Notes under the pieces: generated by a model
Databases searched by the model: none
Seen by the model: only the letters and a program-made list of their open reading frames with translations
What the model was told of the DNA's origin: nothing
Part shown: one piece after another, positions 3,724-11,810 of the stretch
Layout of the letters: the number at the start of each line of letters is the position of its first letter
How positions within the stretch are numbered: position 1 is the stretch's first letter
Source of the DNA: Rhodoferax sp. TH121
GTDB lineage: Bacteria > Pseudomonadota > Gammaproteobacteria > Burkholderiales > Burkholderiaceae_C
Direction of reading: 5' to 3'
Assembly (NCBI RefSeq): GCF_002251855.1
Contig: NZ_NOXW01000021.1
Span: forward strand, 744,001 to 808,000
Length of the DNA stretch: 64,000 nucleotides
Made by a program: the position numbers and the translations under genes

Positions 3724-5454
3724 ATGATTGCAGAACTCTCCCTGCTGCTGATCGATGATGACGAGCTGGACCGGCATGCCATCACGCGCACGCTGCGCAA
3801 AAGCACGGTGCCTTGTGATGTGAGTTATGCAGAAACGGCTGCTGCGGGGCTGGAAATGGCCGCGAGTAAAAAGTTCGACGCCATCCTGCTGGACTACCGT
3901 TTGCCGGACGACAACGGGCTGGAGGTGCTGCGCACCCTGCGTGGCGGTACCTACGACGGGGTGGCGGTGGTGATGCTCAGCCGCTTCGAGAACGAGAGTT
4001 TGGCCGAAGAGTGTCTGGAGGCGGGGGCGCAAGACTTCCTGCTCAAAGACGAGGTGAATAGCCGCCACCTGACCCGCGTGGTGCTTCAGGCCCGCCAGCG
4101 CTTCCAGATTGAGGAACGCTTGCGCTACAGCCTGGAGCAGGTGCGCAGCCTGTCCGAACACGACGCGCTGACCGGGCTGATGAACCGCCGTGGTTTCGAG
4201 CGCTCTTTGGAAACCCAGTTGGCCCGTGTCCGACGCCGGGATGGACGCCTGGCCATCTTGCTGCTGGACCTGGACGATTTCAAAAGCATCAATGACACCC
4301 AAGGCCACGATGCAGGAGACCAACTGCTCGTGGAGGTGGCGCGACGCCTGACGATGATAGCCCGGGATGGGGACCTGCTGTGCCGTTTGGGGGGCGATGA
4401 GTTTGTGGTGATGATGACCAGCTTTGACTATGACGAGCAGGCCATTGTGCTGGCCGACCGGATCAATGCCACCTTGCGTGAGCCCATCTTCATCGGCTCC
4501 ACTGAGCAGAGCATCACCGCGAGCATCGGTATTGCGGTGCTGGGCAACACGACTGACAACGCAGCCGATCTGCTCAAGTATGCCGACCTGGCCATGTACC
4601 AGGCCAAGCTTGATGGGCGCAACAAAAGTCGTTTCTACTCTGTGTCGCTGCAAGAGGCGGTGCAATTTCGCTCGCTTATCAAAAATGACCTGCAGCGTGC
4701 ATTGGAAAGAGATGAGCTCCAGATTTATTACCAGCCGCAGATTCGTTCCATGGATGGCAGTCTGCGCGGCATGGAGGCTCTGCTACGTTGGCACCACCCC
4801 CGCCTTGGCGTGCTATCACCAGCAGCCTTTTTGCCGATTGCCGAAGAAACCGGCCTGATTGTGGACATCGGAGTTTGGGTGTTGCGCGAGGGGTGCCGAC
4901 AGCTCAAGGTCTGGCGTGAGCGCTACGCGCCCCACCTGGCAGAGCTGACACTGGCCATCAATTTGTCGGCTGTGCAGATCAAGCAGGATCAATTGCCCCG
5001 CACCGTCATGGCGGCGCTGGCCGAGCACGGTTTGCCAGCGAGCTGCCTTGAGCTGGAGATTACCGAAAGCATGTTGATCGAGGTGACCCACACCACGGTG
5101 TCCCTGCTGTCCGACATTTCCGCCCAAGGCGTGGCCATGTCACTGGATGACTTTGGGACCGGGTACTCATCCCTGGATCACCTCAAGCTGTTCCCCATCA
5201 GCATTCTCAAGATTGACAAGGGGTTTGTGTCTGCGGTAGGCGAGGGCGGCAAGAGTGAAAAACTCTTCGTGGCCATCATCGCGTTTGCCAAGGCGCTGAA
5301 TATGCAGATTGTGGTGGAAGGTGTGGAGACCCAAGCCCAGGCTGAGTTTTGCACCCAGCAGGGCTGCGACTTGCTCCAAGGCTACTTCTATTCCAAACCT
5401 ATTCCGGCGCAGGAGTTTGAGGCCGTCTTTCTGGCAAGACGGCACAGTAGTTGA
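3724..5454 (+). CDS. REC-GGDEF-EAL cyclic-di-GMP signalling protein
   Basis: 576 aa. The open frame extends further upstream, but the ATG at 3724 begins the REC domain directly (MIAELSLLLIDDDELDRH) and lies just after the preceding stop. REC (residues 1-120) has the phospho-acceptor Asp in AILLDYRLPDDNG. The GGDEF domain has the intact signature LCRLGGDEFVVM. The EAL domain has MEALLRWHHP, INLSAVQIKQ, LELEITES, DDFGTGYSS, KIDKGFV and VVEGVET, so both synthesis and hydrolysis of c-di-GMP are possible on sequence grounds. As the third gene of the PAS-kinase cluster it is the likely output of that relay. No strong ribosome site is visible. Confidence 0.92.
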   Translation: MIAELSLLLIDDDELDRHAITRTLRKSTVPCDVSYAETAAAGLEMAASKKFDAILLDYRLPDDNGLEVLRTLRGGTYDGVAVVMLSRFENESLAEECLEAGAQDFLLKDEVNSRHLTRVVLQARQRFQIEERLRYSLEQVRSLSEHDALTGLMNRRGFERSLETQLARVRRRDGRLAILLLDLDDFKSINDTQGHDAGDQLLVEVARRLTMIARDGDLLCRLGGDEFVVMMTSFDYDEQAIVLADRINATLREPIFIGSTEQSITASIGIAVLGNTTDNAADLLKYADLAMYQAKLDGRNKSRFYSVSLQEAVQFRSLIKNDLQRALERDELQIYYQPQIRSMDGSLRGMEALLRWHHPRLGVLSPAAFLPIAEETGLIVDIGVWVLREGCRQLKVWRERYAPHLAELTLAINLSAVQIKQDQLPRTVMAALAEHGLPASCLELEITESMLIEVTHTTVSLLSDISAQGVAMSLDDFGTGYSSLDHLKLFPISILKIDKGFVSAVGEGGKSEKLFVAIIAFAKALNMQIVVEGVETQAQAEFCTQQGCDLLQGYFYSKPIPAQEFEAVFLARRHSS

Positions 5455-5461
5455 GCAGCGT

Positions 5462-5953
5462 TCAGTCGAGCGCTACGTCGGCCAGCGGGACACCACACAG
5501 CGTGGCCAGCGCCTGTACCACCATGGCATGGTCTTCACGCTGTGGAATGCCTGATACGGTGACCACTCCAACCACGCCCACCCCGCGCACGCGGATGGGA
5601 AAGCTGCCTCCGTGGGTGGCGTAGTCACGCAGAGGCAGACCTTGTTTGGCCTCCAGTGAGCTCTTTTCCTGCTCCAGCTTGAGCCCCATTGCATAAGAGC
5701 TGGTGTGCAGCAGCTCCACCGTGTTGCGTTTGCGGCGGGCCCAGTCGGCGTTGGTGGGCCCGGTTCCCGGCATGGCGTAGTAGAAAACAGTTTCTTTGGA
5801 CAAACGCACTTCAATGGCCAGCGCTACGCTTGCGGCTTCACACAATGCTTTGAGCGTGCTGCCGAGCGTCCACGCAGTGGTCTGGTCAAAGGCGTCGAAT
5901 TGCAGGCGTTGCTCTTGCAGTGCCAGGCGGTCCAGGTCGGTGGCGATGGTCAT
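5462..5953 (-). CDS. UPF0303 (GlcG/HbpS-like heme-degrading-domain) family protein
   Basis: 163 aa, full length for UPF0303. Family hallmarks are DQTTAWTLGSTLKALCE, YYAMPGTGPTNADWARRK.NTVELLH.SSYAMGLKL and DYATHGGSFPIRVRGVGVVG, ending SGIPQREDHAMVVQAL. The biochemical role is not established; related folds bind heme or small organic ligands. The gene converges on the EAL gene with a 7-base gap. Dispersed repeat R1 lies immediately upstream of its ATG, and I see no Shine-Dalgarno sequence there. Confidence 0.88.
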   Translation of the reverse strand: MTIATDLDRLALQEQRLQFDAFDQTTAWTLGSTLKALCEAASVALAIEVRLSKETVFYYAMPGTGPTNADWARRKRNTVELLHTSSYAMGLKLEQEKSSLEAKQGLPLRDYATHGGSFPIRVRGVGVVGVVTVSGIPQREDHAMVVQALATLCGVPLADVALD

Positions 5954-5956
5954 GGT

Positions 5957-6018
5957 AAATGCTATAGAGTTAGGAGCTGCTTGCGCAATAAATACGAGGG
6001 CTAGAGGCCAGTTTTATA
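5957..6018 (+). repeat. Dispersed Comamonadaceae-type repeat, copy R1 (intergenic)
   Basis: The copy reads GCTATAGAGTTAGGAGCTGC, then TTGCGCAATAAATACGAGGG, then CTAGAGGCCAGTTT. It is one of eleven copies of a ~60-base element in this window. It fills the space between the UPF0303 start and the EVE-domain gene, and its distal end supplies the EVE gene's stop codon region. Confidence 0.85.
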
Positions 6019-6490
6019 CTGAGTCGACGTGCCCCAGCCGTAGCAGGATGGTACGCCAGTGGTGGGCCTCCACCGGCGTGATGGACAGGCGGTTGCCTTT
6101 CTTCAGCACGGTCAGTGCTTGCAGTTCGGGGTCCTGGCGCAGCTCAGGCAGTGTCAAGTTGCGCGTCTTGTGTAGCACTTGCACGTCCACCAACATCCAG
6201 CGCGGTGCCTCCGCTTTGCTGGCCGCGTCAAAGTAGGGTGACTGGGCGTCAAACTGCGTGGGATCGGTGTAGGCACCAGAGGCCACGCGCGCAAGACCCA
6301 CAATGCCCGGCTCTGCGCAGCTGGAGTGGTAGAACAGCACACCGTCACCCACCTGCATGGCATCGCGCATGAAGTTGCGCGCCTGGTAATTGCGCACGCC
6401 CGTCCACGGCACCGTGGCGTTGGGCATGGCCAGCACGTCGTCGATGGAGGCTTCGGCGGGTTCGGCTTTCATCAACCAGTAGTTTTTCAT
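6014..6490 (-). CDS. EVE domain-containing protein
   Basis: 158 aa, a single EVE domain (PUA-like fold) over the whole length: NYWLMKAEPAEASIDD, TVPWTGVRNYQARNFMRD, GDGVLFYHSSCAEPGIVG and the C-terminal PVEAHHWRTILLRLG. EVE domains bind modified bases in DNA or RNA; stand-alone bacterial forms have no firmly assigned role. The last codons and stop (TAA at 6014-6016) lie in the end of repeat R1. Start ATG at 6490. Confidence 0.9.
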   Translation of the reverse strand: MKNYWLMKAEPAEASIDDVLAMPNATVPWTGVRNYQARNFMRDAMQVGDGVLFYHSSCAEPGIVGLARVASGAYTDPTQFDAQSPYFDAASKAEAPRWMLVDVQVLHKTRNLTLPELRQDPELQALTVLKKGNRLSITPVEAHHWRTILLRLGHVDSV

Positions 6491-6662: not shown

Positions 6663-7352
6663 ATGATGAGAAAAGTGATCGGCATGGGAATGCTGGCGGC
6701 CGCGGTGTTGCTGACAGGATGTGCTACACGTACCAAGATGGCCTTTGAAAACGAGAGCGACACACTGACTGCCAACAGCAAGCCGGTTTTGTTGATGACC
6801 GTGACCTTAAAGAACCATTACAAGACGTCTCACCAGCCCAAACTGCTGGTGGTGAATGTCGAGAAGCCGGATGCCAAAGAGTCCAGCGAGCGTTTCAACT
6901 TCACGATGGATGAGAAGGCGAAGGTGGAGACTGACAAGCCAGAAACCGGCAATAACTACTTTATCCGCATGGAGCTCGAGCCAGGGCCCTACAAAATCAT
7001 GGGGCTCACCAGCACTTCCACGGGTTTTCTGATCAACGGTTACTTCTTTGCGCCCTTGCACAGTGACATCGTCGCCAAAAAAAGTGGGGTGTATTACCTG
7101 GGACACGTCGATGCGACCGTGCGTGAGCGCAAGGGTGAGGAGTTCCGCGCAGGGTCCCCGGTTCCTCTGATTGACCAAGCGGTGGTAGGTGCATCAGGCG
7201 GAACGTTTGATGTCACCATCAGCGATGCCTTCGACAAGGACGAGGCCTTGTTTCGCGCCAAATTTCCGGCTTTGAAGGGCGTCACGATCACCAAGGACAT
7301 CTTGCCACCGTTCGATCGGGCCAAAGCGCAAGCCTGGTGGCAAGCGCACTGA
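6663..7352 (+). CDS. Predicted outer-membrane lipoprotein of unknown function
   Basis: 229 aa from ATG 6663, with GGGAG at 6651-6655 seven bases upstream; a longer open frame to 6525 is less likely. The N-terminus MMRKVIGMGMLAAAVLLTGC is a lipoprotein signal with lipobox LLTGC, so lipid attachment to Cys20 is predicted. The rest is soluble and mostly beta-rich by appearance, with no motif I recognise. It ends in ...AQAWWQAH and stands alone, converging on the nitrilase gene 16 bases away. The upstream region holds a short GC-dinucleotide run (about 6598-6613). Confidence 0.75.
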   Translation: MMRKVIGMGMLAAAVLLTGCATRTKMAFENESDTLTANSKPVLLMTVTLKNHYKTSHQPKLLVVNVEKPDAKESSERFNFTMDEKAKVETDKPETGNNYFIRMELEPGPYKIMGLTSTSTGFLINGYFFAPLHSDIVAKKSGVYYLGHVDATVRERKGEEFRAGSPVPLIDQAVVGASGGTFDVTISDAFDKDEALFRAKFPALKGVTITKDILPPFDRAKAQAWWQAH

Positions 7353-7368
7353 GCCTCACGCGCTGCGG

Positions 7369-8127
7369 CTAAGCGGACTCCTGCGGCGAAGGGCGGGCGA
7401 TGACCAGCCAGTCGCCGTCGCCGGGGCTTGCGGCGATGGGAAGCCCCTGGGTGTTCCAGATGCAGCTCTTGCCAGCTGATACATAACTGCCGGAAGGACC
7501 GCCGTGGTTAGCGATCAACACCACCATGCGGTGTTCCCGGGCGTAAGCACGCCATAGTGGCGCTTCTGCGGCGTAGCCTGTCTTCGAGGTCAGGATGCCG
7601 GCCGCGTATACATGGGCACCCGCTTGGGCGGCGCGGGCAGCGTGGATGGGCTGGTTGGTATCTGCACAGATGGCGCTGGCAATGCAGGTGGCGCCCATCT
7701 GCTGCAGGTGCATCGGCTCTTGACCCGGCGTCGCAAACTGTTTCTCACCCGCATGCAAATGGAATTTGCGGTACACACTGCGCCCCCCACCAGGCTGCAG
7801 CGTGATCGCGCCGATCGAGGGCAGGGCATTCTCGGATTCCACTGGTGCACCCACGGTAATGGCTAGTCCGGTGCGTCGCGCCGCCTCGCGCAAGGGCGCC
7901 AAAAGCGCGTGGCCGGGGTGTAACAGCATGGCCGGCATGGCGGCTAGTTCGTAGCCGGTAAGTGACAACTCGGGAAACACCAGCCATTGCACGCCGTGGT
8001 CCGCCGCTGCCTCCACAAAGCGCAGGTGGGTCCGAACATTGGCCGCCACATCCAAAGGCGCCGACGTGCTTTGGGCTGCAGCGATGGTGATTGCTATATC
8101 TTTGCTAGCTGCTTGCGCAATATCCAC
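7369..8127 (-). CDS. Carbon-nitrogen hydrolase (nitrilase superfamily)
   Basis: 252 aa with a GTG start at 8127 that lies inside repeat R2; about the first 13 residues (MDIAQAASKDIAI) are encoded by the repeat and conserved sequence begins at ITIAAAQ. The catalytic triad of the superfamily is visible: Glu in VFPELSLTGYE, Lys in VYRKFHLHAGEK and Cys in SAICADTNQP. The substrate cannot be read from sequence; amidase or N-carbamoyl hydrolase activity is possible. It follows the cytosine-deaminase homologue by 13 bases and upp further upstream, so a nucleobase-related role is plausible but inferred. Confidence 0.88.
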   Translation of the reverse strand: MDIAQAASKDIAITIAAAQSTSAPLDVAANVRTHLRFVEAAADHGVQWLVFPELSLTGYELAAMPAMLLHPGHALLAPLREAARRTGLAITVGAPVESENALPSIGAITLQPGGGRSVYRKFHLHAGEKQFATPGQEPMHLQQMGATCIASAICADTNQPIHAARAAQAGAHVYAAGILTSKTGYAAEAPLWRAYAREHRMVVLIANHGGPSGSYVSAGKSCIWNTQGLPIAASPGDGDWLVIARPSPQESA

Positions 8128-8150
8128 GGGAAATGCAGGCTTATTTGGTA
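8091..8150 (+). repeat. Dispersed repeat, copy R2 (forms the codA-like/nitrilase junction)
   Basis: The copy reads TTGCTATATCTTTGCTAGCT, then GCTTGCGCAATATCCACGGG, then AAATGCAGGCTTATTTGGTA. On the minus strand it encodes the last codons and stop of the deaminase gene (His-Thr-Lys-stop), all 13 intergenic bases, and the GTG start plus first ~12 codons of the nitrilase gene. Confidence 0.85.
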
Positions 8151-9418
8151 TGTAAGAACGAGGTTTGGGGTGGCCGACCAGCTAGGCTCAGCGCGGCGGT
8201 ACGGGGTGGTGTTTGGGCCACTAGCACACCCCGGCGCCAGACCTTGAGCCGGGTCGCTTTGAGGCGCAGGGCCTCCACGGGGTTTTGTGCCTGCAGCAGC
8301 ACCAAGTTGGCGTTGCAACCGGCCTCAAGCCCGTAGCCCTGCAGGTGCAGGATGCGGGCGGGGTTTTTGGTTACTGCGTCAAAGCATTGCTGCATGGCGC
8401 TTTGGCTGGTCATCTGTGCCACGTGCAGGCCCATGCTGGCCACCTCCAGCATGTCGCCGCTGCCCATGCTGTACCAAGGGTCCATGCAGCAGTCCTGGCC
8501 AAAGGCGACCGTCATGCCGGCGGCCATGATCTCGGGCACACGGGTCATGCCGCGGCGCTTGGGGTAGGTGTCGTGCCGGCCTTGCAGGGTGATGTTGATG
8601 AGCGGGTTGCTCACCACACTGAGCTGCGCCTCGGCCATCAGCGGCAGCAGCTTGCTGACGTAGTAGTTGTCCATGCTGTGCATGGAGGTGAGGTGGGAGC
8701 CGGTGACGCGGCCGTGCAGGCCCAGGCGGTTGGCCTCATAGGCCAGCGTCTCGACATGGCGCGAGAGCGGGTCGTCCGATTCGTCGCAGTGCATGTCCAC
8801 CAGCTTGCCTTGCTCGGCGGCCAGCTCGCACAACAGCTTCACGCTGGCGGCGCCATCGGCCATGGTGCGCTCGAAGTGGGGAATGCCGCCCACCACGTCC
8901 ACGCCCAGGCTGAGCGCCTTTTTCAGGTTGTCCACACCGCCTTTGCTCCGCAGCACGCCGTCTTGCGGGAAGGCGACCAGCTGCAGGTCGATATAGGGAG
9001 CGACTTTTTTCTTGACGGCCAGCAGCGCCTCCACCGCCAACATGCTCGGGTCGCTGGTGTCCACATGGCTGCGGATGGCCAGCAGGCCGTTGGCCACCGC
9101 CCAGTCGCAATACGCCAGGGCGCGGTCAACCAGTGCGTCAAAGGTGAGGTGGGGTTTCAGTTCGCCCCACAGCGCAATGCCTTCCAAGAGCGTGCCACTC
9201 TGGTTCAGGCGCGGCAGGCCCAGGCTGAGCGTGGCATCCATGTGGAAATGGGCATCCACAAAGGGCGTGGAGAGCAGCAAGCCACCCGCGTCCACCACCT
9301 CGGCCGCCGGGGCCATCAGCCCCTCGGACACCTCCACAATCCGCCCGGCCTGCACCGCCACCGACATGTTCTGGCGCCCATCGGGCAGGGCGGCGTTGTG
9401 GATGAGCAGGTCGAGCAT
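8141..9418 (-). CDS. codA: Cytosine deaminase-like amidohydrolase (CodA family), possible 5-methylcytosine deaminase
   Basis: 425 aa, close to E. coli CodA in length and sequence throughout. Metal and active-site elements are present: HFH (57-59), AFPQDG, HCDESDD (about 210-216), SHLTSMHS (about 251-258) and Asp309 in FGQDCCMDPWY. In E. coli CodA the equivalent stretch is FGHDDVFDPWY, so the position matching Asp314 is Cys310 here and the preceding His is Gln. That Asp is the residue reported to exclude 5-methyl substrates, so 5-methylcytosine or another 5-substituted pyrimidine may be the real substrate. The gene lies in line with upp (pyrimidine salvage). Repeat R3 precedes its ATG; repeat R2 forms its 3' end. 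Confidence 0.85.
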   Translation of the reverse strand: MLDLLIHNAALPDGRQNMSVAVQAGRIVEVSEGLMAPAAEVVDAGGLLLSTPFVDAHFHMDATLSLGLPRLNQSGTLLEGIALWGELKPHLTFDALVDRALAYCDWAVANGLLAIRSHVDTSDPSMLAVEALLAVKKKVAPYIDLQLVAFPQDGVLRSKGGVDNLKKALSLGVDVVGGIPHFERTMADGAASVKLLCELAAEQGKLVDMHCDESDDPLSRHVETLAYEANRLGLHGRVTGSHLTSMHSMDNYYVSKLLPLMAEAQLSVVSNPLINITLQGRHDTYPKRRGMTRVPEIMAAGMTVAFGQDCCMDPWYSMGSGDMLEVASMGLHVAQMTSQSAMQQCFDAVTKNPARILHLQGYGLEAGCNANLVLLQAQNPVEALRLKATRLKVWRRGVLVAQTPPRTAALSLAGRPPQTSFLHTK

Positions 9419-9426
9419 GGCGTAGA

Positions 9427-9490
9427 TTTGCTATGGTTTCAGGAGCTGCTTGCGCAGATTTGGTGAGGGCTTGACGCCCATTTGGTTTGA
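9427..9490 (+). repeat. Dispersed repeat, copy R3 (upp-codA spacer)
   Basis: The copy reads TTGCTATGGTTTCAGGAGCT, then GCTTGCGCAGATTTGGTGAG, then GGCTTGACGCCCATTTGG. It fills nearly the whole 74-base gap between the upp stop and the deaminase start. No Shine-Dalgarno is visible before the deaminase ATG, as at R1. Confidence 0.85.
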
Positions 9491-9492
9491 AA

Positions 9493-10146
9493 TTACTGGG
9501 TGCCGAAGATGCGGTCCCCGGCATCGCCCAGGCCCGGCATGATGTAGCCGTGGTCGTTCAGGCCGCGGTCGATGGCAGCGGTGAAGACGCGCACATCGGG
9601 GTGCTCTTTGTACAGGGTGTTAATGCCTTCGGGGCAGGTCAGCAGGCACAGGAACTTGATGGATTTGGGATTGCAGGCCTTCAGGCGGGTCACTGCGGCT
9701 GCGGCGGAGTTGCCGGTGGCCAGCATGGGGTCGACGACGACCACGTCGCGTTCTTCCATGTTGCTGGGCATCTTGAAGTAGTACTCCACAGCCTGCAGGG
9801 TCTTGGGGTCGCGGTACAGGCCCACATGGCCCACGCGGGCGCCAGGCACCACGGAGAGCACACCGTCCAGAATGCCATTGCCAGCACGCAGCACGCTGGC
9901 AAACACCAGCTTTTTGCCATCGATGACCTTGCCGGTGGTTTTTTCCAGCGGGGTCTCAATGTCCAGATCTTGCAGCGGCATGTCGCGGCAGACTTCGTAA
10001 ATCATCAAGCCGGCCAGTTCATTGAGCAGGCGGCGAAAGCTGCTGGTGCTGGCTTCCTTCTTGCGCATCAGGGTGAGCTTGTGCTGCACCAGGGGGTGAT
10101 CGATCAGCGTGACGTTGGCACGCGCAGCGGGGTTGATGGTGACCAT
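9493..10146 (-). CDS. upp: Uracil phosphoribosyltransferase
   Basis: 217 aa from ATG 10146, preceded by AAGGAA (10152-10157) at 5 bases; a longer reading from 10188 lacks support. The enzyme converts uracil and PRPP to UMP. Family signatures are [28 protein letters not shown], the PRPP loop [17 protein letters not shown], and the uracil-binding end [20 protein letters not shown]. It is upstream of and in line with the CodA homologue; deamination of cytosine would feed uracil to this enzyme. Confidence 0.96.
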
Positions 10147-10217
10147 GTGTGTTCCTTGTTGGTTTAGTTGATGGATGGATTGTGGCAAAGCAGGTTTCGC
10201 GCCCGGGCGTTGCTCTG

Positions 10218-11810
10218 TCAGCGGCGCGAACCACCCAGAATGCTGCCTAACACGCCACGGATGATCTGGCGGCCCACTTCGCGGCCGATGGAGCTGGCGG
10301 CGCTTTTGATCATTTGCTCACCCACACTGGCACGTGAACGGCGGGCGCCGCCGCCCAGCATGTCGCCAATGCTGTCCAGAATGCCGCCGCCGCTGGGCGC
10401 GGGTGAGGCCGTTGGTGCGGGGGCAGAGCCCCGGCGAGAAGCGCGCGGCGCAGGAGCGGCGGTACCGGGGAAGTCTTCCTGCACCGGTTCAGCATGGCCC
10501 ATATTGGCCTGGGTGCGGCCTTTGAGCTTCTCGAAGGCGGATTCACGGTCCACCGCCTTCTCATACACGCTGGCGACGATGGATTCGGTCAGCAGTGTTT
10601 TGCGTTGATCGGGGCTGATGGGTCCAATCTGGCTGGCAGGCGGCAGCACAAACACGCGCTCGGTGAGGGAGGGGCGGCCTTTTTCGTCCAACAGGCTGAC
10701 CAGCGCCTCACCCACGCCCAGTTCGGTAATGGCGGTAGCTACGTCCAACCCGGGGTTGGCACGCATGGTGTCGGCGGCGCTTTTCACAGCTTTCTGGTCG
10801 CGCGGGGTGAAGGCGCGCAGTGCGTGCTGTACGCGGTTGCCCAACTGGGCCAGCACGCTGTCGGGAATGTCCAGCGGGTTCTGCGTGACGAAGAACACGC
10901 CCACGCCCTTGGAGCGCACCAGGCGCACGACCAACTCGATGCGCTCAATCAGCACCTTGGGCGCATCGGCAAACAGCAGGTGGGCTTCGTCAAAGAAGAA
11001 GACCAGCTTGGGCTTGTCCAAGTCGCCCACCTCGGGTAGGGCCTCGAACAGCTCGGAGAGCATCCATAGCAAAAAGGTGGCGTACAGCCGGGGCGACTGC
11101 ATGAGCTTGTCTGCTGCCAGGATGTTGACCAAGCCCTTGCCAGAGCCATCGGTCTGCATGAAGTCTTCAATATTGAGCATGGGCTCGCCAAAGAACTGGT
11201 CGCCGCCTTGTTGCTCGATTTGCATCAGCCCGCGCTGGATGGCGCCAATGCTGGCCGCGCTGATGTTGCCGTATTCGGTGGTGTAGTGGCTGGCGTTGTC
11301 GCCCACGTCCTGGCACATGGCGCGCAGGTCTTTCATGTCGAGCAGCAGCAGGCCGTCATCGTCCGCGATCTTGAACACCAGTTGCAGCACGCCAGCCTGG
11401 GTTTCGTTCAGGTTCAGCATGCGGGCAAGCAACAGGGGGCCCAGGTCGCTCACGGTAGCGCGCACCGGGTGGCCTTGTTGGCCAAACACGTCCCACAGCG
11501 TGGTGGGGAAGGCCGAGGCCTCGGGCGCTTCGATACCGCGCTCGGCCAGCACCTTGGCGAGCTTGTCGCTCACCTTACCGCTTTGCGAGATGCCGGTGAG
11601 GTCGCCCTTCACATCGGCCATGAAAACGGGCACACCAATGCTGGAAAACCCCTCGGCCAGGGTTTGCAGGGTGATGGTCTTCCCGGTGCCGGTGGCGCCG
11701 GTGATGAGTCCATGGCGATTGGCCTTGTCGGGCCGTAAAAAGCAGCGAACGGTGGAGTTGCCGGTGCCGTGTTGGGCAATCAGGATGCCCTCGTCTTGGA
11801 TGGAAGCCAT
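10218..11810 (-). CDS. HerA-like / DUF853 ATPase (YjgR family)
   Basis: 530 aa. Walker A is [13 protein letters not shown] (about residues 38-50) and Walker B is [13 protein letters not shown]. Other family stretches are [30 protein letters not shown] and [20 protein letters not shown]. The C-terminus is low-complexity Pro/Ala/Arg-rich, then a Gly-rich tail ending [14 protein letters not shown]. YjgR-type proteins resemble HerA translocases, but their cellular role is not established and no nuclease partner (NurA) is encoded nearby. It is divergent from yebC and 71 bases upstream of upp on the same strand. Confidence 0.88.

Follow-up and report, generated by a model that had tools for sequence, protein, structure and literature searches.

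The window analysed here, a stretch of 64,000 nucleotides from Rhodoferax sp. TH121, encodes a homologue of the E. coli cytosine deaminase CodA in which a cysteine stands in place of Asp314, and this raises the question of whether the enzyme deaminates 5-methylcytosine in addition to cytosine. The specificity position itself is already known and the residue is not news: in the available portions of PMC6186785, CodA is essentially incapable of deaminating 5-methylcytosine, an Asp-to-Ala CodA mutant gains this activity, and a 5-methylcytosine deaminase of Klebsiella has Ser at the Asp314 position. Solved PDB structures also include CodA chains in which position 314 is Ala, Ser or Gly. The useful part, and the knowledge added here, is that Cys extends throughout a large and separate lineage that goes with a transporter of its own and, in part of its members, with catabolic genes. 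We propose that the window protein is probably a broad cytosine/5-methylcytosine deaminase of this Cys-type (PRK07572) lineage within the CodA cluster.

A preliminary description of this DNA had claimed a codA homologue with Cys at the Asp314 position, conservation of the CodA metal ligands and catalytic residues, and Gln in place of CodA His312. Translation, alignment to the E. coli CodA PDB chains and codon reading bear out the first of these statements, with the gene on the minus strand, and the alignment confirms the other two (Table 1). The gene starts with ATG; the plus-strand reading of the same interval, a frame that was also tried, is not the gene. At 45% identity to E. coli CodA, the window protein has Cys310 opposite Asp314 and Gln308 opposite His312, its metal Asp is Asp309, and its His57, His59, Gln152, His210, Glu213, His242, Asp309 and Trp315 correspond to CodA H61, H63, Q156, H214, E217, H246, D313 and W319. 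Part of the CodA active-site residues used for this comparison are named in the available portions of PMC6186785 and PMC12828455.

Table 1 Features of the window and, where a contig is given (C12, C17), of the rest of the genome.
Feature	Position	Strand	Basis
codA-like gene, 425 aa, amidohydrolase superfamily, NF005748 (PRK07572, 'cytosine deaminase')	8141..9418	minus	ORF, translation, NCBIfam, Pfam Amidohydro_3
FGQDCCMDPWY codons, residues 306-316	8471..8503	minus	translation, alignment to CodA, codon reading
Cys310 codon of codA, TGC	8489-8491	minus	
Gln308 codon of codA, CAG	8495-8497	minus	
upp, uracil phosphoribosyltransferase	9493..10188	minus	ORF; NF001097 283 bits (cut-off 114), TIGR01091 266 (cut-off 208)
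carbon-nitrogen hydrolase (nitrilase superfamily), 252 aa	7369..8127	minus	ORF; Pfam CN_hydrolase 92 bits
preT-preA-hydA-amaB	C12:59,554-65,130		NCBIfam models and place
cytosine-C5 DNA methyltransferase, one detected	C17:103,966-104,970		

Profile scores place the protein in the subfamily NF005748 (784.4 bits over residues 1-423, cut-off 438) and outside CodA proper, since it reaches 424.2 bits against the CodA model PRK09230 (cut-off 483) and lacks Asp at 314. The HxH, His, His and Asp ligands, the Glu and the Gln (Gln152) of the amidohydrolase CodA cluster are all present, and Gln after strand 3 is given as a feature of this cluster in the available part of PMC12828455. With the 5-methylcytosine deaminases it shares the absence of Asp314, replaced here by Cys310. 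Some Asp and Ser enzymes also exceed the NF005748 cut-off of 438 (up to 484 bits), so this cut-off alone cannot part the lineages, which are separated by the tree.

The Asp314 column was read along three search routes. The pattern search returned Cys in 80/80 loci, a figure that is not free of bias because one of the six peptide patterns held the Cys motif and the set was cut to the 80 best of 594 relatives. Profile searches carry no Cys-motif bias. In the profile search of the phylum, for which residues were read in 57 match rows of at least 421 bits (window gene included) and in 13 lower rows, Cys was found in 29/29 best loci and in both of two additional rows, which score 737 and 745 bits. 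In that of a family of 149 genomes, putatively the Rhodobacteraceae, residues were read in 31 of 58 rows (30 as loci, one already in the set), and 29/29 best loci have Cys. Altogether, Cys occupies the position in 140/140 best-matching loci read, 60 of which were drawn by profile alone at scores of at least 737 bits, whereas the loci scoring 421-484 bits comprise 11 with Asp, 14 with Ser and none with Cys, and those below 300 bits have Asn in 13/13.

That Cys310 stems from an error in sequencing or reading, or from a single isolated mutation, is ruled out by these 140 loci and by the three nearest relatives, all of which have Cys; the closest relative found (L004) is 93% identical and has it at the same place. 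Nothing was found in favour of such an origin, which deserves practically no credence. Cys310 is a trait of the whole lineage and not a mutation in the window protein alone. The catalytic residues are likewise retained in 144/144 Cys rows (column counts, window included); the presence of Cys in all 144 is true by definition, because rows were grouped by that residue, and the non-circular support for a lineage-wide Cys comes from the tree and the counts by search route. The window gene is ordinary in its group: matches of E 1e-90 or better occur in 99 of 200 genomes of its family, 97 being above the cut-off by score.

The tree was based on 85 of 187 sequences with the residue-314 column excluded, the Cys rows having been thinned at 80% identity (10 retained by choice, the window included) and the Asp and Ser rows at 90%, together with 6 of the 13 Asn rows. 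In this tree the 56 Cys rows form one side of a branch (support 100/96), the 13 Ser rows likewise form one side of a branch separate from the Cys rows, and the Asp rows (n = 10) require two changes. Residue 314 changes three times in total, the minimum possible, whereas the His312 column changes 11 times in the 79 tree rows that have Cys, Asp or Ser and reads H in 91, Q in 39, S in 13 and N in one of the 144 Cys rows. Cys310 is thus an old trait, stably kept throughout the lineage, while Gln308 is labile. The His-to-Gln change was discarded as a weak sign of specificity, given how often its column shifts. Simple loss of Asp in the Cys lineage was not upheld either, since the tree rooted on Asn-type amidohydrolases puts the Cys branch opposite Asp plus Ser, with a root made unsure by a long-branch warning which includes the outgroup rows and Asp row L137. 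In the tree, a check that the preliminary description had proposed, the window protein lies in the Cys branch, apart from the Ser branch of the Klebsiella enzyme (Kpn00632; 100/96), and is not a member of that lineage. Beside the catalytic columns, the Cys lineage also departs from CodA by F82L, E157D, T247 to L/C/V and H281 to T/M/V/S (CodA numbering).

Among named systems, the window protein shares Cys310 and the catalytic residues with the 140 best-matching loci of the NF005748/PRK07572 Cys type. Unlike most PRK07572 Cys rows, which have His and Val at these places, it and its nearest relatives carry Gln308 and Cys311, and the window's codA lies between upp and the CN-hydrolase gene. Kpn00632 of Klebsiella pneumoniae (PDB 4R7W, 4R85, 4R88) reads FAQDSIQDPWY and thus, as in the window protein, lacks Asp at 314 and has Gln at 312; its close homologue L155 has the same catalytic residues as the window protein, to which it is 42% identical. 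However, Kpn00632 has Ser where the window has Cys, their branches are separate, and codB is found in 11/14 fully flanked Ser-lineage loci. E. coli CodA (PDB 1K6W, 3O7U) shares the metal and proton-shuttle residues but has Asp314 and His312, with codB as its neighbour in locus L153. Hitchcock et al. in 2014 reportedly identified Rsp0341 of Rhodobacter sphaeroides as a 5-methylcytosine deaminase. The putative Rhodobacteraceae have 58 matches of E 1e-90 or better in 57 of the 149 genomes, all of at least 569 bits and all outscoring the Asp and Ser enzymes (421-484 bits), and the 31 that were read all have Cys; based on these family-wide scores and reads, Rsp0341 probably belongs to the Cys lineage. 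No R. sphaeroides record is among the matches listed (60 rows in each listing).

Within the window, a gap of 74 bases separates codA from the end of upp, which lies upstream on the same strand and whose true start may be further in than that of the ORF; we infer that the two genes are co-transcribed. The CN-hydrolase gene, 13 bases downstream of codA and again on the same strand, encodes a protein that scores under the cut-off of all five NCBIfam models matched, and it accompanies codA in 3/157 loci examined, these being the nearest relatives L004-L006. A scan of 7200-10400 returned no promoter-like and two terminator-like sites (shuffle means 0.6 and 2.5).

Gene context in relatives was counted in loci flanked by 4.9 kb or more on each side (66/143 Cys, 25/30 Asp/Ser). 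A first, looser count of the 66 Cys loci (importer gene on the codA strand 38, importer or pathway 40, upp 22, none 10) included single ABC-ATPase matches, for example in L039, and the importer was therefore recounted on its second permease, at 45% identity or more, upstream and on the codA strand. By this measure, a BMP-type ABC importer has its second permease within 2.9 kb upstream of codA in 35/66 Cys loci and in 0/25 Asp/Ser loci. The distance is at most 164 bases in 21/66 Cys loci; in the remaining 14 of the 35, other sequence of 0.5-2.9 kb intervenes. Conversely, codB is found in 0/66 Cys loci versus 16/25 Asp/Ser loci. The upp gene precedes codA on its strand by at most 300 bases in 8/66 Cys loci and by at most 1.5 kb in 13/66, is present anywhere in the locus in 22/66, and occurs in 1/25 Asp/Ser loci, eight of which are without any sought gene; if the importer is required to end within 500 bases, 25/66 Cys loci are without importer, upp, pathway gene or codB. 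Fisher values of 2e-8 for the first, looser count, 3e-4 for a further context count and 4e-7 for the second-permease count serve only as guides, because the relatives are not independent.

Genes of the reductive pyrimidine pathway (hydA, preA or preT) adjoin codA in 5/143 Cys loci of any length (three among the 66) versus 0/30 Asp/Ser loci. In L036, from an uncultured betaproteobacterium (codA 5001-6278), preT, preA, hydA, amaB and a Cys-type codA are consecutive on one strand and likely form a cytosine-to-beta-amino-acid operon. L025 has preA, hydA, amaB and codA, L017 and L041 have hydA, amaB and codA, L045 has importer and codA facing amaB, hydA and preA, and L042 and L044 have amaB only. 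The context as a whole favours uptake and use of pyrimidine bases.

The window's own genome encodes the corresponding pathway on another contig (Table 1), where PreA (NF006183, 706 bits) and the dihydropyrimidinase HydA (TIGR02033, 588 bits) score above cut-off, and preT, for which none of the 25 models shown exceeds its cut-off, owes its name to position and similarity. AmaB passes TIGR01879 (430 over 204) and NF006769, and since the latter names an allantoate amidohydrolase, the role of amaB in the pyrimidine pathway rests on its place. A thymidine kinase is encoded; the genome showed no match to PYNP_C, a domain of pyrimidine phosphorylases, and a permease search limited to PF02133 and PF00860 found none. 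This gene content would leave uracil two likely fates, Upp and the reductive pathway, and thymine probably one. The organism may also make 5-methylcytosine, since it encodes a cytosine-C5 DNA methyltransferase. The genome has four BMP genes, and the cassette headed by that at C12:33,893-38,552 most closely resembles those linked to codA; where its importer proteins are the best match they are 50-91% identical to those linked to codA (55-91% in the pattern-search loci), and in six loci the first-permease slot was matched by the C15 query (28-32%). Judged by these identities, the C12 cassette is a putative orthologue of the codA-linked importer.

In the proposed mechanism, one or two divalent metals on His57, His59, His210 and Asp309 would activate water, a proton would move by way of Glu213, His242 and Asp309, Gln152 would stabilise the ring-oxygen side of the intermediate, and C4 would release ammonia. 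Cys310, smaller than Asp and uncharged, could leave room at C5, such that cytosine, 5-methylcytosine and 5-fluorocytosine would all be accepted. Upp, encoded next to codA, would then convert uracil to UMP, and thymine would in this genome probably be broken down only, via PreTA, dihydropyrimidinase and carbamoyl-amidase; both substrate range and product flow are predictions from residues and gene content.

The broad deaminase reading is supported by the catalytic residues kept throughout the Cys rows, the absence of Asp314 and the upp, importer and pathway context. A Cys pocket that admits the methyl group is suggested by the CodA Asp-to-Ala mutant, the Ser of the Klebsiella enzyme, the Ala, Ser and Gly chains of CodA and, in the available part of PMC13054789, the grouping of 5-methylcytosine deaminase with enzymes that prefer an alkylated base. 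The earlier claim that Asp blocks 5-methylcytosine and that homologues lacking it deaminate this base accordingly stands for the mutant and the Klebsiella enzyme, as far as the available portions of PMC6186785 go, but Cys is not Ser, and the neighbouring columns differ. The accessible portions of the literature searched on 5-methylcytosine deaminase contained no tested Cys-type enzyme. Counting against broad activity, the columns beside the catalytic ones differ from both characterised lineages, pathway genes by codA are confined to the five loci named, and 14 of the 35 importers are set apart from codA; Cys could still disfavour a 5-methyl group.

It is also conceivable, though unlikely, that the protein is a plain cytosine deaminase serving uracil salvage with Upp, Cys310 being a lineage marker without physiological 5-methylcytosine activity. 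The upp gene directly upstream, and within 1.5 kb upstream in the 13 Cys loci counted above, points to cytosine and not 5-methylcytosine as the selected substrate, the NCBIfam name is 'cytosine deaminase', and the catalytic residues are those of CodA. Set against this are the reductive pathway genes by codA in L017, L025, L036, L041 and L045, as this pathway handles thymine as well as uracil. A methyl-excluding Cys pocket would moreover be unexpected given the gain of activity in the CodA Asp-to-Ala mutant (PMC6186785, available portions). A different ring as natural substrate, of a pyrimidine or triazine-like type and brought in by the BMP-type importer (for example isocytosine, a modified cytosine or an alkylated base), with cytosine activity secondary, seems improbable. 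Such a substrate would fit the range of rings accepted by CodA-cluster enzymes (PMC12828455, available part), the association of the Cys lineage with a BMP cassette and not with CodB, and the lineage-specific changes beside the catalytic columns; however, the genes that recur as partners include upp and those of the uracil/thymine pathway, and the aligned CodA catalytic and substrate-site residues that were checked are all retained. We retain the broad cytosine/5-methylcytosine deaminase as the preferred reading. It may, as the preliminary description suggested, recycle methylated bases, but the gene context (upp; uracil/thymine breakdown) points to general pyrimidine base use, in which the main substrate is no less likely to be cytosine than 5-methylcytosine.

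More speculatively, and with some doubt on our part, the Cys lineage might represent a dedicated uptake-and-breakdown branch in which a BMP-type importer, a deaminase for cytosine and 5-methylcytosine, and PreTA, dihydropyrimidinase and carbamoyl-amidase lead to beta-amino acids. If true, environmental methylated DNA would be a nitrogen source, and the module would be dispersed in the window's genome with codA adjoining upp. The activity of a Cys-type enzyme would show what a family common in the environment does with 5-methylcytosine, and would help to tell whether enzymes without the Asp use methylated bases or simply differ in ancestry; its specificity is also relevant to the choice of enzymes for activating 5-fluorocytosine.

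Some further loci deserve mention. Eight plasmid loci, hand-picked among 60 listed of 719, comprise three with Cys, two with Asp and three with Ser; these three Cys loci, the 140 best-matching loci and the window add up to the 144 Cys rows of the column counts. The Kpn00632 homologue L155 lies on Klebsiella pneumoniae plasmid NZ_CP127520.1 (83231-90121), typed as mobilizable, together with codB, a PucR-type gene, a LysR gene and an IS1 transposase. In the window's genome, a BMP-type ABC cassette at C15:325,929-333,243 (L202, L203) adjoins an adenosine-deaminase family gene and probably serves purine nucleosides. Another at C14:913,017-921,914 (L204 7017-15914) lies beside genes for a PfkB kinase, an inosine-uridine nucleoside hydrolase and a protein of the Indigoidine_A family, which we take to be the pseudouridine-phosphate glycosidase family, and this cluster is likely to function in the uptake and breakdown of pseudouridine or nucleosides.
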